Shown one piece after another: positions 27,631-63,508 of a stretch of DNA of 64,000 nt. The position numbers and the translations under genes were made by a program. The notes beneath the pieces were generated by a model that saw only the letters and a program-made list of their open reading frames with translations, did no database searches and had not been told where the DNA came from. This stretch comes from Kineosporia corallincola (GTDB taxonomy: Bacteria > Actinomycetota > Actinomycetes > Actinomycetales > Kineosporiaceae), in contig NZ_JAHBAY010000008.1 in NCBI RefSeq assembly GCF_018499875.1, positions 124,001 to 188,000 on the forward strand, in the 5' to 3' direction. Each line of letters starts with the position of its first letter. Positions within the stretch are counted from its first letter, which is position 1.

Positions 27631-30174
27631 TCAGGCCATGCGCGATGTCTGCTTGATGCGGTTGGTCAGCTCGGTGACCTGGTTGTAGGTGGAGCGCCGC
27701 TCGGCCATCTGCGTGCGGATCTTACGATCGGCGTGGATCACCGTGGTGTGGTCCCGGCCGCCGAACAGCTGGCCGATCTTGGGCAGTGAAAGGTCGGTGA
27801 GTTCGCGGCACAGGTACATGGCGATCTGGCGGGCGTTGCTCAGCGTGCGCGAGCGGGAAGGACCGCACAGGTCCTCCATCGTGACGCTGAAATACGCCGC
27901 GGTCTGGGCCATGATCGTCGCCGAAGTGATCTCCGGGGTGTCGTCAGCGGGGATCAGGTCCTTCAGCACGATCTCGGCCAGTGCCAGGTCCACCTGCTGA
28001 CGGTTCAGGCTGGCGAACGCCGTCACCCGGATCAGCGCACCCTCGAGCTCGCGGATGTTGGTGGAGATCCGCGAGGCGATGTACTCCATCACGTCGTCCC
28101 GCACCTCGAGGCGCTCACCGATCGCCTTCTTGCGCAGGATGGCGATCCGGGTCTCCAGGTCGGGCGGCTGCACGTCAGTGATCAGGCCCCACTCGAAGCG
28201 GGACCGCATGCGCTCCTCGAACCCGGACAGCTGCTTCGGCGGCAGGTCGGAGGTGATCACGACCTGCTTGTTCGCGTTGTGCAGCGTGTTGAAGGTGTGG
28301 AAGAACTCCTCCTGCGTCTGCACCTTGTTCTGGAGGAACTGGATGTCGTCGATCAGCAGCACGTCGACATCACGGTAGCGCCGCTGAAAGGTGCTCGCCT
28401 TGTCGTCGCGGATGCTGTTGATGAACTCGTTCGTGAACTCCTCCGAGTTCACGTAGCGCACGCGCACCCCGGAGTACAGGTTCATCGCGTAGTGCCCGAT
28501 CGCGTGCAGCAGGTGGGTTTTGCCCAGGCCCGACTCGCCGTACACGAACAACGGGTTGTAGGCCTTGGCAGGAGCTTCCGCCACCGCGACCGCCGCCGCA
28601 TGGGCGAACCGGTTGCTGGCACCGATCACGAAGGTCTCGAAGGTGTACTTCGGGTTCAGCCGGGCCGGTTCCACGGTCGGTTTCGCGGTGGCACGGTGCC
28701 GGGCCGGCCGGTCCTCCGGGTGCGGTACCGGTTCACCGGAGGACGCCGGGGGCTGGCCGGTGGCCAGACCGTTCGGGTTGTGCACGCCCAGCGGGCTCGC
28801 GCTCGGCTGGATTCCCTGGCCGCCGTGTTCCCGCTGCGGGTCCCGGCCCTCGCGAGGATCGAACCGCTCCGTGCTCACAGTGAAGGCCGAACCCGGCGCG
28901 CTGTCCAGCGGCTTGGCTCGGTCGAAGTTACGGATGTCGATGATCGAATCCGACCCGTCGCCGGGCCGACGCGAGTCATCCCGGAAACCGTTGTCTCCCT
29001 GAGGATTTCGTTCGCGCCCGAGGGGCGCGCCAGGAACCTCGTGACGGAAACGGCCGTCGCCACGACGGTCCGGACCGAACGAGTCCGGGGCGAAAGAGTC
29101 ACCCGGGTAACCGAAGAGGTCTTCCTGAACGCCGTCGACGGGCAGGTTCTCCCGCTGATCGTCACGCGGGTCCGGGGTTTCGCCGTCCTCAAGCTGTTCG
29201 TTCTCGCCGAACCGGGCACGCTCGCGCACCGGCCGCTCGAACGGCTGGTCCGCCTGGTCGGCACCGTGGTCGTAGCGAGAACTCTCCGAGCGGCCGTCCA
29301 GCTCTAGACGGGGGCCGTCGTAGCGCGGGGTGGAGAAGCGGTCGGTGCCGTCGTCGAAGCGGTCGGTGTCGGGCCGGTCCTCGTCGTGGGTCGGCTGCGA
29401 CAGGTCGGACTCCGGACGAGGCACGTCCTGCGGGTCGCCGTCGTACCGGTTGTTCAGGCGCATCTCGCGCCGGCTGCCGTACCGCGGGCGTTCGCCCTCG
29501 TACCGGCCGTCGTCGAAACGTCCGGACCGGTCGGTCTCGTAGCGGTCGTCATCCGGGCGGGCACCGGGGTAGGCGCCGAACTGGCCCGGGTAGTCCTGCC
29601 GGTACTCGGGCTGGCCGGGCGGGAACTCCGGCTGATACTCGCCCTGGTAGCGGTCGAAGTGGCTGCGCTCGGCGCGATCGGTCCCGTCGGGGCGCAGGTC
29701 CCTCATGTCCGGCACAGGGCGTGAGGACGACGAGGAGCCCCGGGAACCCGCACCGTCCGCCGGAGGATCCGCCCGGAAGTCCGCACGCGGCGTGCCGAAG
29801 CCGGCCTCGCGTGACATCGGGCCACGCACCTCGTAGGTGGCGTTCTCCTCGCTGTCGAACATGCGGATGCCACCGGCCGGGGTGCGGACGTGCACCGGCT
29901 CGCTGCCCGCGAGGGAGGAGTCGACCGTGACGGCCAGCCGGATCGGGATGCCGAGATGCTCGGAGAGGAGGCCGGTGATGGTGTCCCGGACGCGCTGCTC
30001 CAGAATTTCCTTGGTCAGGTCGTTGGGGACCGCCAGGATCGCCGTGCCGTCGAGCAGACCGACCGGCCGGGCGAGCCGCACGAAGGCACGCTGCTGCGGG
30101 GTCACCCCCACCGAATCGAGCGAATCGAGGGCCCGGCGCCAGACTGAGGGAAAGTCCTCGTTCGGCGTTGCCAC
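27631..30174 (-). CDS. dnaA: Chromosomal replication initiator DnaA
   Basis: An 847-residue DnaA from GTG 30174, where GGAGGTGA lies six bases upstream; the frame continues upstream without support. Domain I is residues 1-85 ([21 protein letters not shown]). Domain II spans about 88-505 and is very long, acidic and rich in Arg, Tyr and Asp (repeated RYD/RYE/DDRYE-type segments). Domain III starts at 506 with Walker A GESGLGKT (546-553) and Walker [10 protein letters not shown]. Domain IV ends in the DNA-binding signature [10 protein letters not shown] (301-310 of the last 342). Typical lengths are about 510 in mycobacteria and 650 in streptomycetes, so this is unusually large. DnaA opens oriC and probably represses its own promoter through the boxes upstream. 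Confidence 0.96.
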
Positions 30175-30914
30175 GCCGCTCACCTCCGTTACCCGCCCGT
30201 ATCCGGTCGTTCGTCCACAGCGTTGTCCACACCCTGTGTATGAACGAGAGGCCGGACCGGTCAAGTGTGCACTCGAGCCCGGTCGAACCCGCCGGGCACC
30301 CCCTCCACCGTCGGCGGCAGCACCCGGTTTGCGAATCCCCCAGAAGTCAATGACCAGCCAGTTCGGCGTGTCGTTGCGGGTCACGGAAGCGCAAGAGAGG
30401 ACCATAGCCCGTTGGGCCGCCGGATGGGTGCGGCACGAACCGTCCCGTGCGTCGAGCGGTGTCCCGCCAAATCCGGTACGCCCGGTCCCACCAGCCAGGT
30501 TGTGGATAACTTCGGGAATCCGATCCGATCCCGCAAGCAGGCACTGATCCGCAGGTGGCGGCGACTTCCGGGCAGAACGGGCCGGGGTGCAGTCCCGGTG
30601 CCGTCGACCGCCCGACCCGAGCCAGGGGAAGCACCCGATCGGACCCGCACCCGTGTGGTGCCAGGAAAGCTGCGTTGATCCTGGCTTTGATCGGTGCTTT
30701 GATCGACTGAGCGCCGTAGCCGAGCCCCGCCCTGTGGATGAGTTTGACCGAGGGCGTGTGCGCCCGTACCGTGAGAGGGCTTGACGGCGACCTCTCTTCG
30801 CATGTCCACACAACCCGTGTGGGCGTCCGATGGAGGTCGGTGTCAGCGGTCGTCATGACATTCCGTCATCGGCCGCGCCGACTACTTAAGCACTGACTAT
30901 CTGGGAGTCCTCAC
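30175..30914. promoter_or_regulatory. dnaA-rpmH divergent promoter region with DnaA boxes
   Basis: 740 bp between divergent genes. DnaA boxes: TCGTCCACA 30211-30219 (one mismatch), TTGTCCACA 30223-30231 (perfect), TGTGGATAA 30501-30509 (perfect) and TGTGGATGA 30732-30740 (one mismatch). The first pair lies about 40 bp before dnaA and fits autoregulation. No gene is seen. The core promoters could not be assigned with confidence. Confidence 0.6.
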
Positions 30915-34630: not shown

Positions 34631-34650
34631 CTCAGCTCCGGCTGCACCAC

Positions 34651-34689
34651 AGCGAGGGCAGGGATCAGAATCTGATCCCTGCCCTCGCT
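34651..34689. terminator. Strong hairpin after rsmG
   Basis: Nineteen-bp perfect arms around a single central base, 34651-34689, 20 bases past the rsmG stop. No T tract follows. It closes the rpmH-to-rsmG cluster before the gene-poor region. Confidence 0.75.
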
Positions 34690-34795
34690 GCGTTAGCGCC
34701 CATAACGCCGAGTTCCCGGTCGTCGTTACTTTACGTTGCCAAAGTTCGTCGTCCCTCGAGTATTCACGCAGCTCACTCAAGCCTGTGGGCAGAGG

Positions 34796-35080
34796 TGTGG
34801 ATAACTCGTGTTGGGTTGTGTACTTCAAAGCCCTTCCCACAGTCGAGCTCTGCGGCTGTGAAGCCCTTTGCCATGACGCGCAAGGTTTTGACCTGCGCGT
34901 TTCCTGACCCTGCGGGTGTCCTAGGCACTGCTTGAGCGGCCGACCACAGAGCGCCTGTATCTACACAGCGCTGTGGAAAAACCTGTGGTGGGGTGGGTTG
35001 AAGCCGTCGACGGACGACGCTTATGCACAGGCCCTGTGTGGACGAACCTGTTACGAACTGCGATGTTCACCTGTGGACGA
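34796..35080. promoter_or_regulatory. DnaA-box group downstream of rsmG
   Basis: TGTGGATAA 34796-34804 is perfect. TGTGGAAAA 34972-34980, TTATGCACA 35021-35029, TGTGGACGA 35037-35045 and 35072-35080 have one mismatch each. Five sites within 285 bp, about 8 kb from oriC. Confidence 0.5.
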
Positions 35081-35731
35081 ATGACAAGTTCTCCGAGCTC
35101 TGGCCTGCTTACGCAGTCTTCCTTCTGCTGACGCAGAGCTGCACAGCGCTGATCTGCATGCCGCAGATCCTGTAATTCGCTTGGTTGCATTAGCCGGTTT
35201 CAGGAAGGCGTCTCCTCCGGCCTGGGCCAGGACGGCCGCGACCAGCTTCAGTCTGGTGTTGGAGAGAAGAGCGGGCACGCGAATGAGGAGCTGATCCCCC
35301 CGAGGTTTGCGTGCTATCCGGGCGAGCGGCGTTTCAGGCGTCTTATGTCTTGTCAGCAGCTCTTGGTCAACCTTGGTGAGCAGAAGAGCATGAGAAGTGT
35401 TCCAGAGGGCCGCTACGGCTGATTTGAGGCACTCGATGCTTCGAGTCGGGGGAAGTTGACCTAAATCTCGCGATTGGGCTCACCGAGGGGCTTCGGTGGG
35501 CTGATACGCCTTCGGGCTCTCTGGCTTTCTGGCTCTCGGGATCCCGCCCCGGGCCGGCCCGACCTATGCGCTTAACTGACTCCTGAGCACCTGAAGCTTC
35601 CTGACTTGCTTGCGCCCTTCACCACGTACGGCATGGCAGCGGAGTGTGTATGCGGGAGGGTCTTGGATCTTTGGACGTGCCTCTTCGATGTTCGTCCTAG
35701 TGCTTGCTGACCGCTCAGGTGATGCGGCTTC

Positions 35732-35745
35732 GTTTCACGTGAATC
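35732..35745. promoter_or_regulatory. parS: parS site
   Basis: GTTTCACGTGAATC: 13 of 14 matches to the ParB-binding consensus GTTTCACGTGAAAC. Confidence 0.8.
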
Positions 35746-35929
35746 ACGAGCTCCGGCGCGGCGCTGGGACAGGCACCCTGTTTCCCGTTCAAGAAGCCCT
35801 CAAGCTGGCGATCCGGGTGTTCGAAGCTTCTACCGGGCTCTCAAGCAACCAGCTTTTCAGCGCCGCGCGGCGGCACGCCTGCCCAGCATTGGTCGCGGAG
35901 CTCATGCCGAGTACATGAGCCATCCTGAC

Positions 35930-35943
35930 GTTTCACGTGAATC
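35930..35943. promoter_or_regulatory. parS: parS site
   Basis: GTTTCACGTGAATC, the same one-mismatch variant as the site 198 bp to the left. Confidence 0.8.
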
Positions 35944-36955
35944 AAGACCCAGGTGCCCTGCTAGTCGAAGCCCTGATGATGCGTGTCCGCACCCTCCTTA
36001 TTGAGTGACGCCTGCGTGAGTGAAGCTGCCTGAATGGTGTTGCAGCTAGGCCTAACCAATCTCTTGGTCCTGAGGGGACCTTGAAGAGAGCGCCAGGCGC
36101 TTGGCCTCCACCTGCGCGACTGGGCGCTCTCAGCTGACGGGCCATCGACCCTCCCACCTGCGGAGCAGCCTTCCGACGACAGTGTCTGAAGTCCCCACGG
36201 GTAGGGTCCGGACACCCGCAACACTGGCCAAGGATTAGCTGATGCCGCGGGGACTGGCCAGTGTCCCGATCCTGAAGTCATGTGGGCGAGGTCCATGAAG
36301 TAATTGATTTGGGTTGGTCGACGAGAGACCCGCTGGCCGGGGCGATTCATGTCCTTGCAACTGACGCACCTTGCCTGCCCAAGCGAAAGGATGACCGGCG
36401 ATCTTTAGGCTGACTGGGGCGTTCTGGAAGCCAGCATCCAAGACATGAGGTTCTCCTGCTGGAGAAGTCCATCGTCGGTGGAGGCCGGCCGGTTTCTCTC
36501 CTTGACCAAAACCATGACTTCGCATTCGAGTGGCAGTTGATCCAAGAGGCGTCTTAGCCAATTACCACGGCTCCAGTCATGATTCCGCCATGACTCAGGC
36601 TCCAAGCGACTGCAAGATCGTGGACAGTCTCGGAAAGCGGCGAGCGGTTGGACCTGCTCAGCGACGCTTCTCTTCCCGCAAGACTCAGGCGGGCAGTCCC
36701 ACGGGTCCACGAGTTGGCCAGCCGGCGTTCTGCGCTCTGTCTCATAGCGAAGCTGGGTGGTCTTGGACGCAGATTCGGCTCTGTTCCGATGTTCAACTGA
36801 ATGCGCAGCATTTGGGAACTAACAGATAGGCATGACGAGGAGAGTATGCGTGATTCAGATGTTGGACTGATCGAGTCAACGATCGCAGCCAGCGAATCAG
36901 AGCGAATCACTGAGCTTGCGCAAATGCTGTTCGCATCGACAAGAAGTGCGTCGGC

Positions 36956-36969
36956 GTTTCACGTGAAAC
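36956..36969. promoter_or_regulatory. parS: parS site, perfect
   Basis: GTTTCACGTGAAAC, a perfect 14-bp match to the consensus palindrome. Confidence 0.92.
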
Positions 36970-37252
36970 TGGTACCGCACCACGCCGAGCGGCGTTGATC
37001 GATGCCCGGAGCACGAGGCATGAGAGGCGAGAAACGAAGGGTTCGCCCATGCTGCTGCCGCAGTTCGATACAACAGGCCCCGGAAGGCCTGTACTAGTCA
37101 TGAAGCCTCGATTCACCGTTGTCGACGCGATGATCCGGCCCCGACCAAGGCGCGTAAAGATCCCAAGCATGGTCCGACGCTCTTACCTAGTCCAATGGTC
37201 ATGTTAGTGAGCCGGGCTCATGGGTTGGGGCCGCAGAAGTCAGCGTCGTCAC

Positions 37253-37266
37253 GTTCCACGTGAAAC
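37253..37266. promoter_or_regulatory. parS: parS site
   Basis: GTTCCACGTGAAAC, one mismatch. It is the last site to the left of the IS insertion. Confidence 0.8.
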
Positions 37267-37638
37267 ATGCCAATGTTCCGACACCCTGGCACGGGCACAG
37301 ATCAGGACGCACTCGGAGGCCCAAACTGCGGAGTCGCCAAGTCGAGCAAGGTGAAGCTCTGCTCGCGTACTTCGTCGCACGCCTAACCTGATGAATCATG
37401 GTGCGGCTAGCCGTCAATCAATCGGCGGCACGATATATGTCTGAGCCCCCATGGCATATCACAACTGCGAGGGCCCCTCGGCCGGCCTGCCGTAGCGCAC
37501 CGTCGGACGGGGCCGAACTTTCGCCCGTGCATGATTGCTGATCTTGATCATTAGCGCTGGAATCGCACATGGTTCGTGTGCTCCAGCCGCGTCTGTGGTG
37601 AATCCACGACCCATCGTCCAACATCTACCGGTCGGCTA

Positions 37639-38577
37639 CTAGGGCGTGTTTTGTAAGTCGCGGAGCCAGATGTTGATGCAGGCGATCTGGACCACGGCTT
37701 CGTAGCGCAGAGCCAGCTTTTCGTAGCGGGTGGCCAGGGCGCGGTGCTGTTTGAGCTTGTTGATGGCGCACTCGACCGCATGCCGTTTCTTGTATGACTC
37801 GGCGTCGAAGGCTGGGGGCCGTCCACCGTGGCGGCCCTTGGCTCTGCGGTTGGCTGCCTGGTCCCTCTTGACCGGGATACAGGCCCGGATACCGCGTCTG
37901 CGCAGGTAGGAGCGATTGGCCCGGCTGGTGTAGGCCCGGTCGGCCCGCACCTCATCAGGGCGGCAACGCGGCCGGCCCCTTCCCGGCCGGGGCACCCTGA
38001 TCGCCTCCAGGACCGCCTGGAACTGGGGAGAGTCCCCGCGCTGGCCCGCGGTCAGGATCACCGACATCACCTTGCGGCCCTGCTTAGCGGCCAGATGCAG
38101 CTTCGTCGTCCAACCACCCCGCGAACGTCCCAGCGCATGATCGGCCGGTTCCGGCCGACCGGGTGGGCCGGGCGGCTCGGCCTGGGCCTGCGCATCACGG
38201 CGGGCGCCGGCCGCGTGCTGATGCGCGCGCACGATCGTGGAGTCGACCGAAACCTCCCACACGATGCTGCCGTTCGCATCGCCCCACGACTGCAAGGTGA
38301 CCAGCAGCCGGGCCCAGATCCCAGCCCGCTGCCACTGCCGGAACACGCCATACACCCGCTGCCACGAGCCGTACTCGCCCGGCACGTCACGCCACGGCGC
38401 TCCGACCCGGATCCGCCAGCGGATCCCGTCGATCAACTGCCTCCGCGTCCACTTCGGCGGTCGCCCCCACCGGCCCAGACGGCCCTTGACCTGTAGTAAC
38501 GGCCTCAACGCCCGTTCCATGACACACCACTGCGCATCCGTGAGATCAGCCCGCCCAGACACAGGTATCCTGCTCAA
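37639..38577 (-). CDS. IS5-family transposase
   Basis: A 312-residue DDE transposase from TTG 38577, chosen because GGAGG lies five bases upstream. The N-terminal DUF4096-like domain (LTDAQWCVMERALRP, RQLIDGIRWRIRVGAPWRDVPGEYGSWQRVYGVFRQW) is followed by the RNase H-like catalytic part: first Asp in VSVDSTIVRAHQHAAGA, second in VRADRAYTSRANR, and the Glu region in HAVECAINKLKQHRALATRYEKL. The sequence is complete and undisturbed. The stop codon TAG lies in the CTAG that borders the element, so translation ends in flanking or target sequence. Its G+C is much higher than that of the surrounding region, consistent with recent insertion. Confidence 0.9.
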   Translation of the reverse strand: MSRIPVSGRADLTDAQWCVMERALRPLLQVKGRLGRWGRPPKWTRRQLIDGIRWRIRVGAPWRDVPGEYGSWQRVYGVFRQWQRAGIWARLLVTLQSWGDANGSIVWEVSVDSTIVRAHQHAAGARRDAQAQAEPPGPPGRPEPADHALGRSRGGWTTKLHLAAKQGRKVMSVILTAGQRGDSPQFQAVLEAIRVPRPGRGRPRCRPDEVRADRAYTSRANRSYLRRRGIRACIPVKRDQAANRRAKGRHGGRPPAFDAESYKKRHAVECAINKLKQHRALATRYEKLALRYEAVVQIACINIWLRDLQNTP

Positions 38578-38710
38578 GAGGCCTCCGTTTGTCCCAGTTC
38601 TTCTTCGCCGTTGAACCAGGCAAACGGAGACCTCGCCTGTCTCCTGGGAACGAAACTCCTTACTGCATCACGACTGCATCAAACCGGCAGAGCCACTTGT
38701 GAAACACGCC
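37643..38710. mobile_element. IS5-family insertion sequence
   Basis: Ends are imperfect inverted repeats: GGCGTGTTTTGTAAGT at the left and, read inward from the right, GGCGTGTTTCACAAGT. Both ends are bordered by CTAG (37639-37642 and 38711-38714), which fits a four-base target duplication of the YTAR type used by IS5 relatives. It contains a single transposase gene and splits the gene-poor parS region. Confidence 0.85.
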
Positions 38711-38900
38711 CTAGCAGCGCTGCTGGATTAAGGTATGCCGCTCGCCACGCGTCACTCGCGCGAATCGAGCACGATTAGTTCGCGATGTCACGGCCACAGT
38801 CGTGGTGAGCCGAAGTGCAGTGATTGAGATAGCGCTGGAGCTGAGTGCCCGGAGATCGAAGACAACGGGCCTGGTCCTTCAGCCTTGAACCTTCGCGAAG

Positions 38901-38914
38901 GATTCACGTGAAAC
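38901..38914. promoter_or_regulatory. parS: parS site
   Basis: GATTCACGTGAAAC, one mismatch to the consensus. Confidence 0.8.
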
Positions 38915-41323
38915 AGACATGCAAGGCAACTTCAGGTCGCCGCCCAATAAGCGGATCCCACGACAGGTCCTTCCAGACCGCGTACTCGTGGCTCAAGCAA
39001 CCCTTCTGATGGCGGGCGCGAGCAGGACGCTGGAAGCGCGGACCGTGTGAACACCGCTGTCACTTGCAGCGGTCGGAGGCAAGACGGTTCGATTCCCAGA
39101 CCGCCGCCACACACCCTGGGTTGATGAGCTTGCACGATACTCGGGCGCCATGCGAGAGGGCGATGATCAACGGGCCATAACCCTTCTTCACCGGGTCGGA
39201 GGCCTGCGTGCGTGACCGAATCATGATGGCAATGCGTTCGCTCGTTACACGGCCACTGGCGATTGATCCCGGACCCAGCCGTGACCCGCGCGATCGGCGG
39301 GGCTCACAACCCTCGATTAGCCGGAGGAGACGGCAAGCGAATTCTTGGGCTCTGCGGATCTGTGCCGAGGCGCCCTGGATCCTTGGCGAGGGAAGCGCGC
39401 GTCCACAGTTCACCGATCTTGCGCTTCTCTGTTGCTGAACAAGGTCACGACAGGAACCGGCAAGATCAGGTTCTGGGACAAGCATCAGGAAGTGTTACGG
39501 GTCTCCGAGTTCAGGGCCAGCTATACCCGATCGACGAGATGGCACGACCCGGCCTGCTGGCCGCGGTCCCGATTTGATCAGATCGGGCTCTTGGCGATCC
39601 ATCCATCACGGCACGATCTGAAACCAGGCAGTGCATCGCGACCCGATCTACGGTCGCGGACAGGCTGATTCCGCATCGACGTGAAGGACTCCTAGACGAG
39701 GGTCTCTCCCTATGGCAGATGAATCCGCCTAGAAGGAGCGGCGTCGATGCCCGACGAGGCGAAGACTGGCCGCAGGCAGTCAAACCGCGCCAACCACGCT
39801 TCTTGGGCCAGCCTCATGGAGAGCGAGTTCGGTCCCTCCGACGTCGACGCCGCCTCAAAAACTCCCGGAAAGTACGTGGTCCTGAAGCCGGCTACCAAGG
39901 CCTGCCAACTCTGCGGCCCGCCCTGTAAGCATTCATGGCTGGTGCCTCCAAGCAAGTGCAACTGGACCTCAAGCTTGGCTGGGGCCGTGGTATTTAGAGC
40001 CGCAAGATGAATCATGATTGATCGACGAATGAGGGCCCTCATTGACGCTAACCAAGGCTTGAGACGGGAAGCGGTGGCTGAGTAGCCGACGAAGCCCTCG
40101 TCACAAAGCAATGAACGAGAGCAATCGGGTCAGCAATCAAGCGGAACCGGCGGGGACGCTTAATGGGACTGACTGGCCAGGCAAGATTTGCTGACGGCCC
40201 TGCTTGCGCTTGCTTCGGTGGATGAAGAGGTATTACGTGCCGGCAGCATAGACTGCCGCGTTTACCGGGTGATCCTTTTTAGAGCCGGGGAGCTGCGGTG
40301 CAACAGGAGAGAGCGAATACCAGCAGAGCTGAGCTGGGCACTCCAATGGAATGACCCAATCGATTGGTGAGCTCTCTTCCCTGTAGGCCTCGGATGCCTC
40401 GCCGGAGCTGATTCCGCATCTCAGACAATCGGCAGAGGATGACGAGGCGATGCCGACCATAGGCGCCGTCGGTGGCGCTCGGCTCACTTGATTGGACTCG
40501 ACATCTCGCGAACGGCTTCCGGCTCGCTCCGTGATGATAGATCGCGCCAACTGAGGAATACGGGCAGCAGCCAACTGACGCCGTTCACGTTATAGGCGGC
40601 CAGCAACAGCAGCCCTCGGCGGTGCATGAGTCGCTGCCCGGGAGACATCACCTTTGTAGCGGGCCATCGCTCAGACCTTACGATGCCCGAGGCCGAATGC
40701 GCTTCGCACGCTTGACCACGACCGGCTCCGCAGCCTCGGCGACCGGCATCGGCCACGGCCCACGCACCGGCTTCGGTGCGAACATGCCACCGGCGCCCGC
40801 GTTCGCGTCTGCCCATTCAGGCTCGTGAACCTCGTGGTCGACATGCCCGCCTGCTAACAGATCACCTCGAGTTCTTCGAAGGGCCCAGGGGGTGCACAGC
40901 TGACTTCTTCTAGGCCCGCAGCTTCACCGCCGCCGCCTGGTCTAGCACCTTAGGTGAGATCGGCGATCCGCGCCGAGCTGCTGCTATCGGCTCGATGCCT
41001 GGTTCGATACCGGCGACAGGCCGGCCTTGAGGAACTGAACGTTTGCACGTGCCGTCGGACTGCTCAGAGACCTTCGCCTGGCGGGCGGCTTGGACGACAG
41101 TTCATCTCACCGGCCGTATCGACAGGATGTTCCGTTGCTTCCCGACCGGTGGCCGAGAGGACGAGGCATGATCGACATGCTCTCTTGCTGGTCAGAAAGA
41201 CAAGGAACTACCTCTGCCAAGAATCATGACACGCGCGGCAGGGAATGCTGGACAGTCACGCAGAACTGGTTGCTGCGGACGCCAATCTGGTCCCGGCGCC
41301 GATGTGTAGCCGCGAGCAGGAAA

Positions 41324-41337
41324 GTTTCACGTGAAAC
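41324..41337. promoter_or_regulatory. parS: parS site, perfect
   Basis: GTTTCACGTGAAAC, a perfect match. It is 2.4 kb from the nearest parS to the left, the widest spacing in the array. Confidence 0.92.
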
Positions 41338-43134
41338 GACTAAAAGCATCCCTTGCTGTGGCGCCGACAGGCCTCATCCTCCGCGGCCCTCTGGTGAGCC
41401 AGGATGATGCTCGCCTCAGCTGCTTCGGATGCCGGACCGTCGGTCCCGCTCGACGTGAGGTGCTGAATGGGGCGACCGTGGCCGACACCGTTCGGATTGT
41501 TCAACTTCGGGACCCGACAGTTCCATGGTTGAGCGATGCTGTTCTGCCCGTGCCGGTTCAGCAGCAGCCGACAACAACCGCGTCTTGACGGATAGAAATG
41601 GCCCCGTAGTGCGATCACCGACTCTACCGCCTGGAGCAGAACGCGATTTTCCCCAAGTGCATAACCCTTGTGGATATCCGATCTTGAATCCTCTGCAAGC
41701 GTCGCAAGAGGAAGAATGAGCAGTTCAGCCCGTGGACGGACACGCGATCCAGGCTCCACGCGGGGCCATAAGTTGACCTCTTGTGGATTGTTGGTTCTTC
41801 ACAGCGGGAGGAGGATGCCGAACTAGGTCGGCTTGTGCAGTCTTGGCTCAGCCATCCACTCCATCCACAAGCTGTGGACATCGTGGTTGACGGCGACCGC
41901 AGGCGTGGGTGAGGGCAGCCGCACGTATTTGCCAGACTCTGATGGTCACCGGAATGGGGTGAGGTCGCCCTCGCGAGCTCGCTCGGGCACAGCGGTTGCT
42001 GAATGGGACAGCTCCTCATGATCGATCTACGGCGAATCATCCGCTGGCACTTGCTCAGGGATATAGGCCGGCATGCAATTCTTGCCGCTGCCGCCCAAGG
42101 GCACAGGACATTGTCAGCTGGCAGCAGAGCTCGATATCTACACAGAGGCTCTGCCAGCACGGCTCTTGTCCCATGCGCTGTCGTCCGCCGGTAATCGGTG
42201 AGACGTGAGGACGTTCGGTACCGCTTGGCCCGCAGAGAGAATCGAGCTCTCTGGCCGAGGTATCGGTGTTGATGAAGTGCGATAGGCCGTTGGGCACTTT
42301 AACGCGATGACCGTACGCGATGACTGCTTGGCCGCAGCGGTGGCCTGGCCTCGTTGTCGCCCCAAGCGCAGACTTCCCTGACGCGAATGCGGCGAGTCGT
42401 TCGTGGGTTGCACTGTCGTGTCTTCGAGTCGGCGCGAGTTGATGTTGGTCGCTCCACACTGGTACAGGTAGCCAGTTCTGACGACATGGTTGGAGTAGCT
42501 CGAAGCGGTCTAGCGCACATCCGCAGCGGTTCGTGAACTGGGTCCGGAAAGGCTCCGCTCAGGATCCTTGGGTCGGATCCGTCAAACCTTCATGTTGTGC
42601 ACGGCCAATAGGTACGTGTGCCTGGTGTGGTGCTTGCAAGGATTGACGAGGATCGGCCCGCATCGGGCCCAGCGGCGGCAAAGAGACTCGATGGCGAGGA
42701 ATGGTTCGATCAGATTGGCACTGCGGATGTCGAACGGTCGACCGCGAAGCGTCAACCCAGGGGATGATCGACACCTTGCTGGATGATTTTTCGGTGCCCA
42801 TATTGGCCAGCGGTATGAGACGACCGCATTCTTCGTTCTTGCTGAACTCTTAGGCGTCAGCGACTCTTGCCATTGCGCACCGCACCTCTGACAGATGAGA
42901 GGCGTAAGAAGCCGGCCTAAATGGTCTTGTCTTGTTGGGACGAGATTGGGTCTAGTCCTGATAGGCCATGTGCGGGGAAACCTAATTGGGTGCCGCACCA
43001 GCAATCTTGGAGAGCGTGGCCCGCAAGCTGTGCGCGGTCTGCGTCTCGCTGCGGCAGCTGCATATGGCCGCCGAAGCGATGTCCCACGGCAAGAGTGATG
43101 CTGAGGTTGGGAGCTTGAACGAAACCAACGGATG

Positions 43135-43148
43135 GTTTCACGTGGAAC
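43135..43148. promoter_or_regulatory. parS: parS site
   Basis: GTTTCACGTGGAAC, one mismatch to the consensus. Confidence 0.8.
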
Positions 43149-43576
43149 GGCAGTCCATCGAACCGATCATCTGCGGGCTGGGGGAGAGAGAAGGCACTTG
43201 CCTGCGACGAGGGGGATTGAGAGTTCGAGGAGGAGATGAAGAGCGGGTTGCCGCGATAGGCGATTTCCGTTGTGCGGGTGCCCCATGGAGATACCGAGAG
43301 GACGCAATGGTCGTCGCAGCGGTGAGGGGGCCGATTCTCCCGCTGGCTAGTGAGGCGAGTTGGCGCCTTGGGAGGGCTGGGAAGTGCAGTCGACGGTCTG
43401 AGCGCAATGAGATCGATAGCGCTTTTAGTCCTGAGCGATTCGCTGTCTGAGGGACAGGGACTGGAGGCGTCATTGGTTTGCGAGCTTGCGAGCGTAAGGC
43501 ACCATGCCGAATGGGCGCCTTCTGAAGAGGATTCACGGAGTGAGCCAACATTGCTTGGGGAAGGCGTTAGCTCTTC

Positions 43577-43704
43577 GGTGCGGAGGTGCGGAGGTGCGGA
43601 GGTGCGGAGGTGCGGAGGTGCGGAGGTGCGGAGGTGCGGAGGTGCGGAGGTGCGGAGGTGCGGAGGTGCGGAGGTGCGGAGGTGCGGAGGTGCGGAGGTG
43701 CGGA
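43577..43704. repeat. 16 perfect tandem copies of GGTGCGGA
   Basis: 128 bp made of exactly sixteen identical 8-bp units, without a single substitution. It lies between the parS sites at 43135 and 43858. The spacing of GG pairs would allow two-layer G-quadruplexes. Perfect identity indicates recent expansion or strong homogenisation. Confidence 0.97.
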
Positions 43705-43857
43705 GCTGACAGCTGTCCAGTAATCCGAAGGAGTGCCTGATGTCGAGCTGAGGTGCCGGGCCGCGCATCGACTATGTGTGGACTGTCAGCTCAGGTGGGT
43801 CGGGACTGCCGCGGTTTGAGATTCTCCATGCGCGGTGCTTTTAGAAGTGCAGGCTAC

Positions 43858-43871
43858 GTTTCACGTGGAAC
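43858..43871. promoter_or_regulatory. parS: parS site
   Basis: GTTTCACGTGGAAC, the same variant as at 43135; the two sites flank the GGTGCGGA repeat. Confidence 0.8.
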
Positions 43872-44101
43872 CGAGCTTTGGAGCGCTTGGCTCAAGACGG
43901 GCTCGTGTGACCCAGCGGGCTTCCGGCCATGGGGAGTGGCGCTGGTCCGAGGATTTGCGGTGCGCCCTGCGTGATCTCGTAGGTAACGTCTCGTCTTCGT
44001 GATTGACTAGGCCAGTCACGAGTAGTGCACCTTCGGCGACAGCAGGTGCCTGTCCGGGGACCGCACAGCCATCAGATCTATTCACAGCGGCCGAGTTCGG
44101 T

Positions 44102-44254
44102 TGTGGACAAGTGGATGAGTATCTGACCGCACGACGTATGCAGCGCACGTGTTGAACTGGGCTCTGACCAGCTCTGATGTTTGCAATCTCGAGATCCATC
44201 GGCGGGGGCCAAGCTCTTCTCGATTATCCACAAGCCGGCGCAGGCTGTGGATAA
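44102..44254. promoter_or_regulatory. Three perfect DnaA boxes upstream of parA
   Basis: TGTGGACAA 44102-44110, TTATCCACA 44224-44232 and TGTGGATAA 44246-44254, the last two facing each other 13 bp apart. They end about 60 bp before the proposed parA start and could link DnaA level to parAB expression. Confidence 0.6.
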
Positions 44255-44312
44255 CGCTCCTTGATTGGGTCATGCGGGGGTGGGCTCGGAGCAGTCGACG
44301 GAAGGGATGTTG

Positions 44313-46895
44313 GTGAGTGAATTGGGCTGGCCCTCGGTTGCACTGAAGCGAATGGCCAACGGACTCGGGTGGCCGAAGGCCGATCGTCGCTTGGTTTCCC
44401 GTGAAACATCTCCTCCGGATCAGTCGCTTCAGGGCGGAGGTCAGACTGCAGGCATGTCTGGCTCGCCAGCTGACGAAGCGCACTTAACCGTCGCTGCGCC
44501 CAACGAAGGCGTGGAGAGGGCTAGTCGAAAGGGAAGCCTTGACCCAGTGAGGTCAGCGCAGGGCGAGCCGCTCCAGCCGGTAGAGGGAGAATCGGCACGG
44601 ATTGGGGTGCCGGGGCGATCTCAGGGCGGCGCTGTCGAAGAGGCGGCCTCTGGAGCCCGGGCGCTTGAAGGCAGCGGAGCTAGTGGGCTTGCCGGAGCTA
44701 CTTCGCCTGGTCGAAGGCCGTCACTTCGCGATCGAATGGATCGAGCAGCACTGCGCCAATCGTCTCGCGCGGGACAGCTGGCGTCTGCGGCTTCGGGCAA
44801 GGATCTCAGCAGTGAAGGTGTGGTTCTCGCTGAGAGTGCTCCGCAGGATGCGGCTGGCGGTGGTCCTGCTGCGTCGGCGAGTGCATCAGGTTCCGGAGAG
44901 CCTTCGGCTGCGGGGCCCGGCGCAGAGGTTGACCCGGACGTGACGTCGGGACAGGTCGTTGAGGTGGGCGCTTCTCGGCCAGGCAGTTTCAGTGAGTCAA
45001 TCGGCGATTTGAGCAGCGAGCTTGATCGTGTAAGTGAGAGTAACGAGGGACCTGCTGCGCCAGGCCACCCGATGGCCATGATGGGCCCCTCTAGGTCTGG
45101 CTCTGTCGGGCCTGGTGTTGGGACCGACACCCTTGACGCCGACGCTCGTGAAGACAGCATCGGAACTGAGTCTCTTAAGGCTGTCAGTCCCGACTCACAG
45201 CAGGCGGAAGAGGAGCGGGGTGATCAGAGGCATTCCGATCTGCGGAGAAATCCGGAGCTCCGGCCGGCCGAGGTCATCGACCTTTCCGATGCTTCCAGGC
45301 CAGCACAGAACTCGTCCGACGACGATCGCCGTCGGCTCATGGATTCACGTGAAACCGGGCACGAAACACGACAGAACCCCGCGAACGTGAAGGAGCTGGC
45401 GACTGAATCGGGCGCGCTGAAGCCGCAGATGCCAGTCCCGGCGCTTGTAGATCTCCGAGACGATGATCTCCCGCCGGCCCCCGTAGATCGGTTCAACACA
45501 GGGGGAGGAGTTTTCTCCCCGGAGGGATACGATCGGGGTGGTAAGCCCGTTGGAGTTTCTGGTCAGCAGGTAGCCACCTCCTACGCCCTTGACGCCGTAG
45601 CGGGGTATGCGGGCCGGGCCCATAGTGAAAATGGTTCCCTGTTCGATATGGACCGGGCCGAGCAACACGGAAGTGCTCCGGCCAAGGATCACCAGCACGT
45701 CAACGCCACACCAGGCGGTAGTCGGACCGGGGCAGAAGCTCCGAGTCATCCATCATCATCACCAGAGGTTCGGATGTCAGCGAGCAACGAGCCCAGCACT
45801 TCGGACACCGAGGCCGGATACTCGATGTCTGTCACCCGTCCCTGGCTGGGCGTAGATCCGACTCCGGGAACCCGGCAGCCGGTTCAGCGCCCCGTCGAGG
45901 CCCGGGAGACTGCTGGGGCCACCACTTCACCCGCCACGGGAAGCCAGCCGTTGGTCGAGTCGATCTCACTGCTGGACGACTCGACGCCACTGGCTCTCGA
46001 AGTCGCGGAGGACACCCGCCGCCGTATCGCACTTGCGGGTCGGCGGTTCCCGCGGCCCAAGGAGACGCGGGTGCTGACGGTGTCGAACCAGAAGGGTGGC
46101 GTCGGTAAGACGACCAGCACCGTCAATCTGGCCGCAGCTCTGGCTCAGGCCGGGCTGCGCGTGCTGGTGCTCGACATCGACCCTCAGGGCAATGCGTCCA
46201 CTGCTCTGGGCATCGATCACCATGCTGAGGTTCCCAGCGTCTACGACGTGCTGGTTGAAGGCATGCCCCTGAAAGAGGTGGTGCAGAAGTGCCCTGACGT
46301 CGAGAACCTCTGGTGTGCCCCCGCCACCATCGATCTGGCCGGCGCCGAGATCGAGCTCGTCTCTCTCGTCGCTCGCGAGTCGCGGCTCCAGAAGGCTGTG
46401 CAGACGTATCTGGAGGAGCAGGAAGCAGGGCCGGGGCGTCTCGACTACATCCTGGTCGACTGCCCGCCCAGTCTGGGGCTCCTGACCGTCAACGCGTTTG
46501 TCGCGGCCCAGGAAGTGCTGATCCCGATCCAGTGCGAGTACTACGCGTTGGAGGGGCTCTCCCAGCTGTTGCGCAACGTCGACTTGATCAAGGGCCACCT
46601 GAACCCCAAGCTTCACGTCTCGACGATTCTTCTGACCATGTACGACGGTCGTACCCGCCTGTCGTCGCAAGTTGCGGACGAGGTTCGGGCACACTTCACC
46701 ACCGAGGTCCTGAAGACGACGGTTCCGCGTTCGGTCCGCATCTCCGAGGCTCCGAGCCACGGTCAGACGGTCATGACGTACGACCCCGCGTCGAGTGGGG
46801 CGTTGTCCTACCTGGAAGCGGCAAGGGAGCTCGCGGAGCAGGTGCTGGATGAGAGCGAGCGGTCGCAGAAGTCTGACCCGGCCAACCGTTCTTGA
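44313..46895 (+). CDS. parA: Chromosome partitioning ATPase ParA with giant N-terminal extension
   Basis: An 860-residue frame from GTG 44313 (GGAAGG seven bases upstream; TTG 44265 is an alternative). The ParA/Soj domain occupies the last 285 residues: deviant Walker A KGGVGKT at 594-600, DIDPQGNASTALGIDHH, DYILVDCPPSLGLLTVNAF and the C-terminal RSVRISEAPSHGQTV. ParA binds DNA non-specifically as an ATP dimer and moves ParB-parS complexes. The extension is low-complexity (Ser, Gly, Pro, Glu, Asp) and its codons are less G+C-biased at third positions than those of the ATPase part. Two parS sites lie in frame and encode VSRET (28-32) and DSRET (344-348). A much later true start near 46000 is the alternative. 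Confidence 0.85.
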   Translation: MSELGWPSVALKRMANGLGWPKADRRLVSRETSPPDQSLQGGGQTAGMSGSPADEAHLTVAAPNEGVERASRKGSLDPVRSAQGEPLQPVEGESARIGVPGRSQGGAVEEAASGARALEGSGASGLAGATSPGRRPSLRDRMDRAALRQSSRAGQLASAASGKDLSSEGVVLAESAPQDAAGGGPAASASASGSGEPSAAGPGAEVDPDVTSGQVVEVGASRPGSFSESIGDLSSELDRVSESNEGPAAPGHPMAMMGPSRSGSVGPGVGTDTLDADAREDSIGTESLKAVSPDSQQAEEERGDQRHSDLRRNPELRPAEVIDLSDASRPAQNSSDDDRRRLMDSRETGHETRQNPANVKELATESGALKPQMPVPALVDLRDDDLPPAPVDRFNTGGGVFSPEGYDRGGKPVGVSGQQVATSYALDAVAGYAGRAHSENGSLFDMDRAEQHGSAPAKDHQHVNATPGGSRTGAEAPSHPSSSPEVRMSASNEPSTSDTEAGYSMSVTRPWLGVDPTPGTRQPVQRPVEARETAGATTSPATGSQPLVESISLLDDSTPLALEVAEDTRRRIALAGRRFPRPKETRVLTVSNQKGGVGKTTSTVNLAAALAQAGLRVLVLDIDPQGNASTALGIDHHAEVPSVYDVLVEGMPLKEVVQKCPDVENLWCAPATIDLAGAEIELVSLVARESRLQKAVQTYLEEQEAGPGRLDYILVDCPPSLGLLTVNAFVAAQEVLIPIQCEYYALEGLSQLLRNVDLIKGHLNPKLHVSTILLTMYDGRTRLSSQVADEVRAHFTTEVLKTTVPRSVRISEAPSHGQTVMTYDPASSGALSYLEAARELAEQVLDESERSQKSDPANRS
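44394..44407. promoter_or_regulatory. parS: parS site inside the parA frame
   Basis: GTTTCCCGTGAAAC, one mismatch. It encodes VSRET near the ParA N-terminus, a coding use of parS that I recall from streptomycete parA. Confidence 0.75.
45342..45355. promoter_or_regulatory. parS: parS site inside the parA frame
   Basis: GATTCACGTGAAAC, one mismatch, read as DSRET in the same frame and register as the site at 44394. Confidence 0.78.
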
Positions 46896-47143: not shown

Positions 47144-48322
47144 GTGAGCGACAAGCGAAGGGGCTTGGGGCGAGGCCTCGGAGCGCTGATTCCTCCGCCT
47201 CCGGCAGCCCGGCCCGCCGGTGACCGTCCGGTGGATACCGCCTTCTTCAACGAGCGGCAGGACGGCGACGCTCCTGCCGAAGCGCAGAAGGCGGCTTCAG
47301 AGGGTGCTCCGGCCACCTCGGCTGACACCAAGTTGACGGACTCCAAGTCGGCGGACAGCTCCGGTGAACAGCAGCCGACGACCACGTCGGGCGACGCCTC
47401 GGCGGACACCGAAGCTGCCAAGGCCGAGGAGCTCCCCCCGGTCCAGGCCAAGACACCGGACCTGGTGCCGGTGCCGGGTGCCTACTTCACCGAGCTCCCG
47501 GTCGGCGCGATCGTTCCCAACCCGCGCCAGCCGCGTACGGTCTTCGACGAGGAGGCCATGACCGAGCTGGTCCACTCGGTCAAGGAGATCGGTGTTCTCC
47601 AGCCGATCGTCGTGCGGTCGGTCCCTGCCGCCGAAGCCGGTGGCGCCACCTCGTACCAGCTCATCATGGGAGAGCGCCGATGGCGGGCCAGCACGTTGGC
47701 CGGCCTCGAGCACATTCCGGCCATCGTTCGCGACACCAACGACGATGACCTGCTGCGGGACGCGCTGCTGGAGAACCTCCACCGCAGCGAGCTGAACCCG
47801 CTGGAAGAGGCCGCGGCCTACCAGCAGCTGCTTGACGACTTCGGTTGCACGCACGAGGTGCTCGCCACCCGGATCGGTCGCTCCCGGCCGCAGATCAGCA
47901 ACACCATCCGGTTGCTGCGCCTGCCCCCGGCCGTGCAGCGTCGGGTTGCCGCCGGGGTGCTCTCGGCTGGGCACGCCCGGGCGCTTCTCGGCCTGGAGAA
48001 CGCCGAGGCGATGGACAAGCTCGCGACGCGCATCGTGGGCGAAGGGCTTTCCGTGCGTGCCACGGAAGAGGCCGTCGCCATCAGCGAGCCCAGTGATGAG
48101 GCTGCACCGAGCGCCCGTCGTAAGCCGCGGGCCGGCAATCGCAACGTCGAGCTCGACGATCTCGCGGGCCGTCTTGCCGACAAGCTGGATACCCGCGTGA
48201 GCATTGCTCTGGGTCGCACCAAGGGCAAGCTGAGCGTCGAGTTCGCCAGCGTCGACGATTTGAACCGCATCCTCGACATCCTGGCTCCGGAGACCCGGAA
48301 GGCTTTCCAGAACGGCGAATAG
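47144..48322 (+). CDS. parB: Chromosome partitioning protein ParB
   Basis: A 392-residue ParB from GTG 47144 (GAGGAGCA upstream). Residues 4-16 ([13 protein letters not shown]) form the conserved ParA-stimulating start. An acidic, low-complexity linker spans about 20-105. The CTP-binding nuclease-like domain starts near 118 ([22 protein letters not shown]) and carries GERRWR at 176-181. The HTH that reads parS is near 230-260 ([22 protein letters not shown]). The C-terminal dimerisation domain includes [29 protein letters not shown]. It clamps on the parS sites to the left and spreads along DNA. It follows parA by 249 bp. Confidence 0.96.
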
Positions 48323-60628: not shown

Positions 60629-63508
60629 TCAGCGCGCCGAGTGGCGCGCCAGGGTGGCGGGGGACGAGGGCAGACGGCGCAGGATCGGCCCGGCGACGTC
60701 CTCGATCTCCTTGACCCCGAGCATGCGCATGCCGGACACGTAGATCGTGAGCAGGAAGACGCCACCGATGACGACGGCGATGATGCAGGCCAGCCATCCG
60801 TCGCCGAGGAAGGCGTGCACGGACTGGGCCATCAGCCAGGCGACCACACCGCCGACCGCGGCCACCATGATCATCTCGACGTGTGCCCGCACCACCTGCT
60901 GGGCGTCCAGGTCGCCGAACCGCTGCCGCAGGATCCAGTACGACAGGCCGGCCCCGACGATGTTCGACAGGGCCATCGACAGGCCCACGCCGACCACGAT
61001 GTATTCCGGCGCCCGGTCACGCAGGGCGAACAGCGAGATCAGGTTGCCGGTGGCCCAGGTGGCGCTCGCCGCGATCTGGATGAAGAACGGCGTCTTGGCG
61101 TCTTCGAAGGCGTAGAACACGCGCTGGAACAGGTACTGCGCGCTGTAGGGGATCAGGCCCAGCGACATCGCCATCACCACGTAGCCGATACCGGTGGTGG
61201 TGGCCCGGTCGTTGCCGGGGAACATCGAGGCGGTGACGTCGGTACCCAGCGCCAGCAGACCGGCGGTGGACACCACCGTGGCCAGGCCGGTCAGCCGCAG
61301 GCCCAGGGACAGGTCGGCCCGCACGTCGCGGATCCGGTTCTCCGCCGCGGCGTTCGACATCCGGGTGAACAACGCGGTGACCAGTGAGACCGCCACCAGC
61401 GAGTGCGGCAGCACGAACAGCAGCTGGGCGTTGTCGTAGATCGCCTTACCGGTCTTGATCGCGGCGTCGGGCCGGTCTTCGAGCAGCTTGCTGGCGGTGG
61501 TGGTGACCTGCGAGATCACCACGAAGGCGATCTGCTGCACGACGACCGCGGCGAAGGTCCAGCCGGCCACCTTGCTGGCCGAGGCCAGGCCGACGCCGCG
61601 CAGACCGAACCTCGGCCGGTAACGCACGCCGGCCCGGCTCAGCATCGGGATCAGGATGACGGCCTGGGCTGCCACGCCGAGCGTCTGGCTGCCGGCCAGC
61701 AGGCCGATCTTGGTGGCGTCCCAGCTGTCCACCGGCTGGGTGCCCTTGTGGTAGATCACCATGAAGGCGACCAGGCCGGCGATCGACACCACGTTGTTCA
61801 TCACCGGCGCCCACATGAACGCGCCGAACTTGCCCCGGGCGTTCAGCACCTGGCCGAGCAGGGTGTAGAGGCCGTAGAAGAACACCTGCGGCAGGCACCA
61901 CAGCGAGAACGCCGCGGTCAGGCTGACCAGTTCGGCGTCCCACTTCGACGAGCCGTAGATCTTCACCAGCAGCGGCGACGCGAGGATCACCCCGACGGTG
62001 ACCACCATCAGCATGCCGAGCGCCGCCGTGAGCAGGCGGTTGATGTAGTCCTCGCCGCCGTCCTTCTGCTTGGCGGCCCGGGCGATCTGCGGCACCAGCA
62101 CGGCGTTCAGCACGCCACCGGCCAGCAGGATGTACAGCGCGTTCGGCATGATGTTGGCGACCGAGAACGCGTCGGCCGCGCCGGCCCCGCCACCGGGTGC
62201 CACCACGGCGACCAGCACGGCGGCCCGGACGAATCCGAGCAGCCGGGAGGCCAGCGTTCCGGCCGCCATCAGCGCACTGCTGCCGAGCAGGGACGACGTG
62301 CGCGAGGCCGGTTTCTTCGTCTCGGCCGGCGCCGGCGCCGCCTCGGGCTCGGCGTAGTCCTCCTCGACCTCCGGCTCGGCGTAGCCGCGGTCGTACTCGG
62401 GCACCGGCTCGCGCTCGCGCCGGCGGGACCGGGCCGGCGGGGCCGGCGGCATCGGACGGCGGGGCGAGCGGGCGATCGGCGCCTGGATGGCCTGCAACGG
62501 CTGGGTGACGTCGGCCGGGACGACCGGGCCCTCGAGGCCGAGCAGGCTGAGCGAACCGGTCAGCTCGGCCGGGTCGAGGCCGGACAGGTCGTACGGGTTC
62601 TTGGCCGGGGTCTGCGGCGGCGGGCGCCAGCCACGGCGTGACGACGGTCTCGGCCGCGGCGTCTCCGGGTCGAGCGGGTGGAAGTAGGGCTGGTCCTCGT
62701 CGTACGCGTCGTCGTACCGGTCATGACGCTCGTCGCGGCCCTCGTCGTAGCCGGCATCGTCGTAGTAGCCGTCGTCGTGGCGGGAGCCGTCGTCGTACGC
62801 GGCCGGGCCGCCGTGGCCCGGAGTGCCGTGACCGGGTGCGTCCCGGTCCTGGTCGTAGGGCTCGTACCCGTCGGAGTACCCGTCCGGGTACTCATCGGGG
62901 TACCCGTCCAGGTGCCCGGGCTGGTGTGTGCCGCGTGAGCGCTCCGGCCGGTACGGGTGCACGGGAACCGTCGGGTCGGCCGGGGCCACCTCGGGGGCGG
63001 CTGGCTGCTGGCGTCGCGACCGGCGTCCCTGGACCATCGGACGGGTCGGCTCGGCCGGCGAGACGGGCACGCCACCCGGGTCGGACCGGTACGGCTGCTC
63101 CTGGTCGAACGGCTCGTCGTGGGCGTCGTACCGGTCGTACTGAACCGGCTGTTCGTACTGCGACGGCCGGTCCTGCGGCTCGCGCGGGCGACCATCGCGC
63201 CGGGACGACCGGCGCGGGCGCTCGGGCGGCGGCTGGTTCCACCAGGCGTCCGCCGGTCCGCTGGTGCGCTGCGACCCGGCCGGGCGCGGCGCCTGACGGT
63301 GCCGGTCCTCGTGCTGGGCCGCGTACTGGGCCTCCCGCTGTGCCGCGTAGGGGTCCTCGGCGTACGGGTCCTCGGGGCGGTGCCCTTCCGGGGCACCGCC
63401 GTACTGCTCGTCGTAGTGGTCCGGGTTGCTGTCAGCCCGCCGGCGGCGCGTGGGCCGGTCCGGATCGGCAGGCGCAGGCGTGGCGTCGTCTGACGACCAG
63501 CCGCTCAC
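60629..63508 (-). CDS. murJ: Lipid II flippase MurJ (MviN) with long acidic N-terminus
   Basis: A 959-residue protein from GTG 63508 (AAGGAG five bases upstream), overlapping the preceding stop as GTGA. Residues 1 to about 405 are disordered, rich in Asp, Tyr, Arg and Pro (many YDE/DGYxD segments). The MurJ core starts at SRTSSLLGSSALMAAGTLASRLLGFVRAAVLVAV and has 14 predicted membrane helices, including ADAFSVANIMPNALYILLAGGVLNAVLVPQIARA with the conserved N and R residues of the substrate cavity. It flips lipid II to the outer face for peptidoglycan synthesis. The pseudokinase gene follows 214 bp downstream. Confidence 0.94.
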   Translation of the reverse strand: MSGWSSDDATPAPADPDRPTRRRRADSNPDHYDEQYGGAPEGHRPEDPYAEDPYAAQREAQYAAQHEDRHRQAPRPAGSQRTSGPADAWWNQPPPERPRRSSRRDGRPREPQDRPSQYEQPVQYDRYDAHDEPFDQEQPYRSDPGGVPVSPAEPTRPMVQGRRSRRQQPAAPEVAPADPTVPVHPYRPERSRGTHQPGHLDGYPDEYPDGYSDGYEPYDQDRDAPGHGTPGHGGPAAYDDGSRHDDGYYDDAGYDEGRDERHDRYDDAYDEDQPYFHPLDPETPRPRPSSRRGWRPPPQTPAKNPYDLSGLDPAELTGSLSLLGLEGPVVPADVTQPLQAIQAPIARSPRRPMPPAPPARSRRREREPVPEYDRGYAEPEVEEDYAEPEAAPAPAETKKPASRTSSLLGSSALMAAGTLASRLLGFVRAAVLVAVVAPGGGAGAADAFSVANIMPNALYILLAGGVLNAVLVPQIARAAKQKDGGEDYINRLLTAALGMLMVVTVGVILASPLLVKIYGSSKWDAELVSLTAAFSLWCLPQVFFYGLYTLLGQVLNARGKFGAFMWAPVMNNVVSIAGLVAFMVIYHKGTQPVDSWDATKIGLLAGSQTLGVAAQAVILIPMLSRAGVRYRPRFGLRGVGLASASKVAGWTFAAVVVQQIAFVVISQVTTTASKLLEDRPDAAIKTGKAIYDNAQLLFVLPHSLVAVSLVTALFTRMSNAAAENRIRDVRADLSLGLRLTGLATVVSTAGLLALGTDVTASMFPGNDRATTTGIGYVVMAMSLGLIPYSAQYLFQRVFYAFEDAKTPFFIQIAASATWATGNLISLFALRDRAPEYIVVGVGLSMALSNIVGAGLSYWILRQRFGDLDAQQVVRAHVEMIMVAAVGGVVAWLMAQSVHAFLGDGWLACIIAVVIGGVFLLTIYVSGMRMLGVKEIEDVAGPILRRLPSSPATLARHSAR

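Follow-up and report, generated by a model that had tools for sequence, protein, structure and literature searches.

The coupling of ParA to cell poles and to other machinery varies among actinobacterial genera, according to the available text of PMC9298525. The same text describes the ParA N-terminus of Mycobacterium smegmatis as required for DivIVA binding, and reports that another ParA did not gain DivIVA binding when 20 N-terminal residues of this protein were grafted onto it. The M. smegmatis protein is the nearest precedent for the locus analysed here, and an imperfect one because of the outcome of that graft.

We analysed a stretch of 64,000 nucleotides (hereafter the window) from an 8.2 Mb genome in 53 contigs. 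Its ParA does not have the usual length of about 300-400 residues: it reaches 860, which we take as a descriptive feature and not as a function. Comparisons involve five other genomes of the genus, further members of the family and wider samples; family and genus labels used below (f23, f34, f54, g1, g6) are internal codes.

Reading frame and anatomy of the long ParA

The window's parA encodes a ParA/MinD-type ATPase domain with a deviant Walker A motif (AAA_31, E 6e-56), in which KGGVGKTT occupies residues 594-601, counted from GTG 44313 (Table 1). Solved relatives align from residue 569 at the earliest (best PDB match 8ray), and Pfam gives no match in the 585 residues preceding the domain. 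An earlier note on this DNA had claimed a long N-terminal extension, and the extension is real: the frame is open from GTG 44313 up to Walker A, which starts at residue 594 of 860, and it extends from stop to stop over 44265-46895.

Table 1. Location of the features discussed, in window coordinates.
Feature	Coordinates	Strand	Description and evidence
rsmG-parA gap	34631..44312	.	9.7 kb, gene-poor, 8 parS-like sites; motif scan, ORFs
IS4/5-type transposase gene	37639-38577	-	inside gap; Pfam
Ribosome binding site GGAAGGGA of long ParA	44300..44307	+	5 bases before GTG
Long ParA	44313..46895	+	860 aa + stop, GTG start; ORF, genus comparison, Pfam AAA_31 at residues 586-768
Tandem GWP box MSELGWPSVALKRMANGLGWPK	44313..44378	+	residues 1-22; dN/dS 0.09, profile matches in ParA N-termini of other families
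parS-like site GTTTCCCGTGAAAC	44394..44407	.	read as VSRET, residues 28-32; motif scan, genus comparison
Hypervariable low-complexity linker	44412..45461	+	genus alignment
parS-like site GATTCACGTGAAAC	45342..45355	.	read as DSRET, residues 344-348; in genus otherwise only in G001
Conserved block B (DDLPPAP to DRAE)	45462..45662	+	residues 384-450; dN/dS 0.31
Conserved block C (EVRMSAS to WLGV)	45765..45854	+	residues 485-514; codon conservation
Candidate short ParA, internal ATG	45774..46895	+	373 aa; GAGG five bases upstream, suggestive only
ParA ATPase domain	46068..46838	+	residues 586-842; Pfam AAA_31 (E 6e-56), structure matches
parB	47144..48322	+	ParB_N, HTH_ParB, ParB_C; directly downstream of parA

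The start context is common to the six genus genomes (the window and five others): a Shine-Dalgarno site is followed by GTG AGx GAx TTG GGC TGG CCC TCG. The letters GGAAGGGA of the ribosome binding site are found in five of these genomes, the sixth (G003) having AAGGAGAGGA, and in-frame stops upstream of the start occupy different positions from one genome to another. All six retain the start codon and the reading frame of the arm, and frameshifts, which the earlier note had named as a possible objection, are absent from the five other genomes. The extension as a whole varies from 334 to 945 codons across the genus, and ParA itself from 646 to 1258 aa in the other five genomes. At the level of the family, stop-to-stop ParA frames span 656-1314 aa in 13/13 genomes.

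Over the 548 codons of the extension, stops number 16 and 29 in the two alternative plus-strand frames and 10-13 in each minus-strand one, whereas the ParA frame has none. None of 200 dinucleotide shuffles of this stretch was open (mean 12.0 stops). The extensions of the other five genus genomes are likewise free of stops, and their shuffles were open only for G005 (1/200). With 15 pairs pooled, residues 1-22 have a dN/dS of 0.09 and two proximal blocks have values of 0.31 and 0.27; the stretch leading up to the ATPase domain gives 0.025 and the core 0.05. Third-position G+C (GC3) is low, as had been claimed (0.60 in residues 1-548 vs 0.81 beyond), although the sample on which that claim was based (45055-45159) is shifted by one base relative to the frame, its true count being 23/35, not 22. 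In period-3 signal, the extension (with medians of 4.2-5.1 in five genomes) ranks between the gap (1.8-2.4) and the window's parA core, parB and rsmG (6.2-11.3). Linker gaps are in multiples of three in two cases out of two for the closest pair, G004/G002, the sole clean result, the linker nucleotide alignment of the other 14 pairs being unreliable with many gaps that are not multiples of three. A search of Rfam returned a single sub-threshold match, which we take as chance. Comparison thus shows the long ParA to be, as far as genomes can tell, a protein of 860 residues translated from GTG 44313 and, short of a measurement on the protein, we regard the question of whether the arm is translated as settled.

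The build of the arm is modular: a tandem motif at the N-terminus comes first, then a hypervariable low-complexity linker and two conserved blocks, which lead to the ATPase domain. The window's LGWP-type motifs correspond to residues 4-7 and 18-21; as the defining feature of a ParA with a GWP box, we propose a pair of such motifs close to the start and separated by about 8-28 residues. The linker cannot be aligned between most species. Of the description of the arm as acidic and low-complexity, the second term fits the linker well, while acidity is only mild (net charge -25 over 548 residues). In an AlphaFold2 model, the ATPase domain is mostly well predicted and nearly all of residues 1-546 have a pLDDT below 50, a value which is no proof of disorder as the alignment used held no relatives of the arm. 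The arm is very long and probably floppy. The pattern of conservation shows an arm selected at both ends, with the sequence and length of the linker free to vary.

parS sites in the arm and in the rsmG-parA gap

The window contains 10 parS-like sites (at most 3 mismatches; 0.07 expected), all at 35731-45356: eight lie in the gap between rsmG and parA and two in the arm. The latter two encode VSRET at residues 28-32 and DSRET at residues 344-348, just as the earlier note had it. The first is kept in all six genus genomes, with the same codons (GTT TCC CGT GAA ACA), and the adjoining linker turns over. Its variant, GTTTCCCGTGAAAC, occurs in the coding arm and in 0/45 gap sites of five genomes; this may reflect an accommodation to codon usage (TCC for TCA), or the variant may bind ParB more weakly. 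The peptide encoded by parS is unlikely to be a target of selection, as the second site is common to only 2/6 genus genomes.

In-frame parS sites are no novelty: outside the family, such a site (at most 2 mismatches, in the open frame, no more than 300 codons before Walker A) occurs in 124 of 143 ParA loci, a non-random set with many Streptomyces. What is special here is the length of the arm and its conserved tip. That both in-frame sites of the window fall in the same register had also been noted, and they do; this is weak evidence, as the third register contains TGA and only two registers are therefore open to a coding parS. Family counts are 28 for VSRET, 3 for FHVE and none for the third register (related genomes, not independent, with the whole stop-to-stop frame used for G006, G008 and G009), and those of the wider set are 158, 65 and 1, many of the 65 possibly sitting upstream of the true start. 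In genus g6 (L026, L027, L028), a one-mismatch parS-like site, read as VARET, is found within the ParA ATPase core, 2190-2253 bases after the parA start.

The rsmG-parA gap spans 15.2-17.8 kb in four other genus genomes, and 8-10 parS-like sites are present in each of the five genomes compared (the contig of the sixth ends too early). Where rsmG could be located in other members of the family (five genomes), the gap is 0.5-5.0 kb long, as measured to the upstream stop of the ParA frame in G006 and G008. The window's gap has one transposase gene, one ORF opposite it and three others among ORFs of at least 150 aa; Pfam gives no match for these four non-transposase ORFs, and tblastn did not find the transposase in the corresponding stretch of four other genus genomes. 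At E 1e-5, blastn detected no gap match between the window's genome (G000) and G003, G004 or G005, nor between G003 and G005; the closest pair, G004/G002, is the only one sharing gap sequence (6%). This gap looks like a fast-evolving regional centromere. Two local features were also recorded: an octamer, GGTGCGGA, with 16 perfect copies at 43577-43705 in the window's gap, and one stretch with a gene-like period-3 signal (9.6) in the gap of G004.

Distribution of the tandem GWP box

The box is present in 11 of the 13 family genomes; G008 and G009 have a long open frame without recognisable tandem box. The tandem motif is also seen in N-terminal ParA frames of many families of the class. A profile of 36 positions, built from 13 ParA N-termini and used at E 0.001, matched 15 of the 197 class genomes in a whole-genome search, and 182 gave no match (about 39 candidates scored per genome). 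Fourteen of the 15 matches lie upstream of parA on the same strand (five placed by coordinates and nine by inspection, two of the nine in another frame), and nine of these 14 genomes contributed no row to the profile; the match in G222 has no ParA adjoining. At the level of the order, 16 of 149 genomes matched at E 0.001, 15 of them upstream of ParA by coordinates (exception: G015). All these counts are lower limits, as the profile misses visible boxes, for example in G016. In a sample of the phylum, 4/198 genomes were matched; one of the four is not of this class, and we attribute its match, in a frame of 43 codons, to chance.

When nine genomes were searched at a loose threshold, with the best 150 candidates of each considered, ParA was the best match in eight and no non-ParA match fell below E 0.004; G177 gave no clear box match among its 150 candidates. 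Within the limits of these searches, the tip is shown to be clearly found only on or beside ParA. On a ParA tree of 83 rows, the state of the box is clustered but patchy, with 20 changes vs a shuffled mean of 31.1, an overstated number of changes as four rows of the window's family are labelled 'none' and two of these (L009 and L019) carry the box in longer loci; in L022 and L023 none was found in the longer loci either. We found no description of the GWP motif in print among open-licence PMC papers, and sequence comparison yielded no binding partner for the box.

The box does not always belong to the ParA frame. A tandem GW pair lies upstream in 42 of 184 distinct ParA loci (a non-random set, in which some family genomes, including that of the window, were scored as box-less since their first locus was short): it is in frame with ParA in 36 loci and in another frame in six. 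The six out-of-frame boxes belong to families f54 (2), f23 (3) and f34 (1). In each of them the stop of the separate frame overlaps the likely ParA start, as GTGA, ATGA or ATGACTGA, these starts being our own choice from the letters. A sequencing error is an unlikely cause in f23 and f54 because more than one genome is involved in each, while the case of f34 rests on one genome. As this overlap recurs in f23, f34 and f54, the box looks like a unit travelling with ParA, fused or not. The coexistence of fusion and separation would suggest contact between box and ParA, or a common partner. Two f23 loci (L209 and L210, in G198 and G215) have a separate upstream frame in which two GWP motifs, one at each end, are about 80 residues apart; another f23 genome, G181, has no GWP-bearing upstream frame.

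Candidate roles of the arm and comparison with known systems

The best explanation, to which we give a probability of roughly 0.6, is that the arm is a tether ending in a GWP docking peptide, its DNA doubling as the parA-proximal end of the parS array. A docked tether is proposed because purifying selection at both ends flanks an unalignable middle. The bivalent tandem GWP peptide, at the extreme N-terminus, would be joined to the ATPase by a presumably flexible linker whose sequence and length, judging from the conservation pattern, should hardly matter. Through this tether, the motif most likely docks ParA, either to a partner at the pole or on the nucleoid or to ParA itself; during segregation, the ATPase would then be held near its target or clustered by it. 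At the DNA level, the arm may serve as the parA-proximal end of the parS array as well: the conserved parS, 81 bp inside parA, would load ParB, and ParB bound to this first site may damp parAB transcription. Of the two interpretations offered in the earlier note, that of a disordered ParA arm holds up as regards a protein arm, given the conserved tandem GWP tip and the proximal blocks under purifying selection. Its other interpretation, a centromere that has spread into parA, agrees with a linker hypervariable in length and with parS sites in both linker and adjacent gap, and so holds in part too, but in-frame parS sites are usual for actinobacterial ParA (124/143) and are not what is odd here.

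A broader proposal, which we advance tentatively as a little short of an even bet, is that Actinomycetes have, in the tandem GWP box, a so far undescribed docking module dedicated to ParA. The box would exist either as an upstream microprotein whose stop codon overlaps the start of parA, or as a fusion to ParA with about 50 to 970 residues from box to Walker A; in this family, the fused form would have absorbed part of the centromere, one stretch of DNA thus being both tether and parS array.

The tether could coexist with a second product, an idea that we consider doubtful yet the best surviving of the alternatives. One mRNA would give both the long ParA from GTG 44313 and a box-less ParA of 373 residues from ATG 45774, mixed dimers setting the docked fraction. 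The earlier note had named a start mapped near 46000 as another possible objection; no in-frame ATG or GTG exists there, the last two before the ATPase domain being at 45774 and 45825, and ATG 45774, which lies in block C, is a possible additional start. This ATG has a GAGG five bases upstream in 6/6 genus genomes, and block C contains a run of 14 successive degenerate codons identical across the six; with 0.37 per column as background, the probability of such a run at any one place is 8.6e-7, uncorrected for search. This background is however uneven, 10 unchanged codons in a row being found inside the ATPase domain as well. Codons near the ATG vary more at first than at third positions (0.16 vs 0.11), a pattern which may fit an initiation region, and across the six genomes 72-93% of sequence windows have stronger mRNA structure than the one at the ATG, a mild effect. 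These signals, present in genus g1, are unspecific in g6, where divergence is low across the whole proximal region and the core and mRNA structure is not weaker at the ATG. An ATG with a Shine-Dalgarno match of at least 4 bases can be picked at -74 to -107 in 13/13 family genomes, but across genera it was chosen by eye. The Shine-Dalgarno energy (-7.0) is unremarkable and does not surpass the values for start-like codons lying in frame within the ATPase domain (best -6.9 to -10.4 in the genus). A scan of the coding strand for sigma-70-type promoters detected none. In families whose box is separate, ParA appears to be translated from its own start.

The GWP peptide may instead target ParA itself, in an inhibitory or clustering role, rather than anchor it to a third protein. 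We regard this as unlikely, although a peptide that belongs to ParA in some lineages and is the product of a neighbouring frame in others shows the pattern expected for parts that work together. Aromatic pairs on a flexible linker, moreover, resemble proteins of the sticker-and-spacer type.

Clearly less probable still is a pure by-product of the centromere, with a parS region that has extended into the 5' part of parA and an arm that is tolerated as in-frame filler. The fast turnover of the gap (blastn matches are almost absent among genus genomes), a linker as hard to align as the gap, and the location of 10/10 of the window's parS-like sites in gap and arm all point that way. Purifying selection on the box and on both blocks argues against it, as does the fact that the box is common to families with short linkers or with a separate box. 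ORFs are often overlong in GC-rich genomes and GC3 is low in the arm, but an artefact (a misplaced start or an overlong frame) is rejected as hardly credible, given no stops over 548 codons vs 10-29 in the other five frames, a frame kept intact in six genomes and dN/dS well below 1.

For actinobacterial genera, there is little explanation of how ParA is coupled to the poles and to other machinery. The conserved tryptophan motif of ParA N-termini, in some lineages a separate mini-gene beside parA, offers a concrete handle that lends itself to mutation, to exchange and to use as bait. The arm, for its part, illustrates the extent to which a centromere region can turn over while the gene at its edge stays in frame.

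Long disordered protein parts may be common in this genome. In the window's DnaA and MurJ frames (27631-30813 and 60629-63508, minus strand), counted from provisional starts, the first Pfam domain comes only at residues 719 of 1060 and 444 of 959, respectively; much of the stretch ahead of it is low-complexity by eye.

The locus resembles those of chromosomal ParA/Soj ATPases (e.g. structure 1wcv) in its ATPase domain, its Walker A motif KGGVGKTT, the order rsmG-parA-parB and the presence of parS nearby, and differs from them by the 585 residues without Pfam match before the domain. ParA proteins of Streptomyces and other actinobacteria share with it an in-frame parS (VSRET) before the ATPase domain, mostly in the same register, but their leaders are shorter and the Streptomyces frames compared have no GWP motif. 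Long, disordered and lineage-specific N-terminal arms are known from another segregation protein, mycobacterial FtsK, whose extension is positively charged and is described in the available text of PMC13277299 with no mention of centromere sites. The ParA of M. smegmatis, finally, has an extension before the ATPase domain proposed as a lineage-specific contact; it comprises 20-25 residues, vs about 585 here, and no GWP box is mentioned in the available text (PMC9298525).
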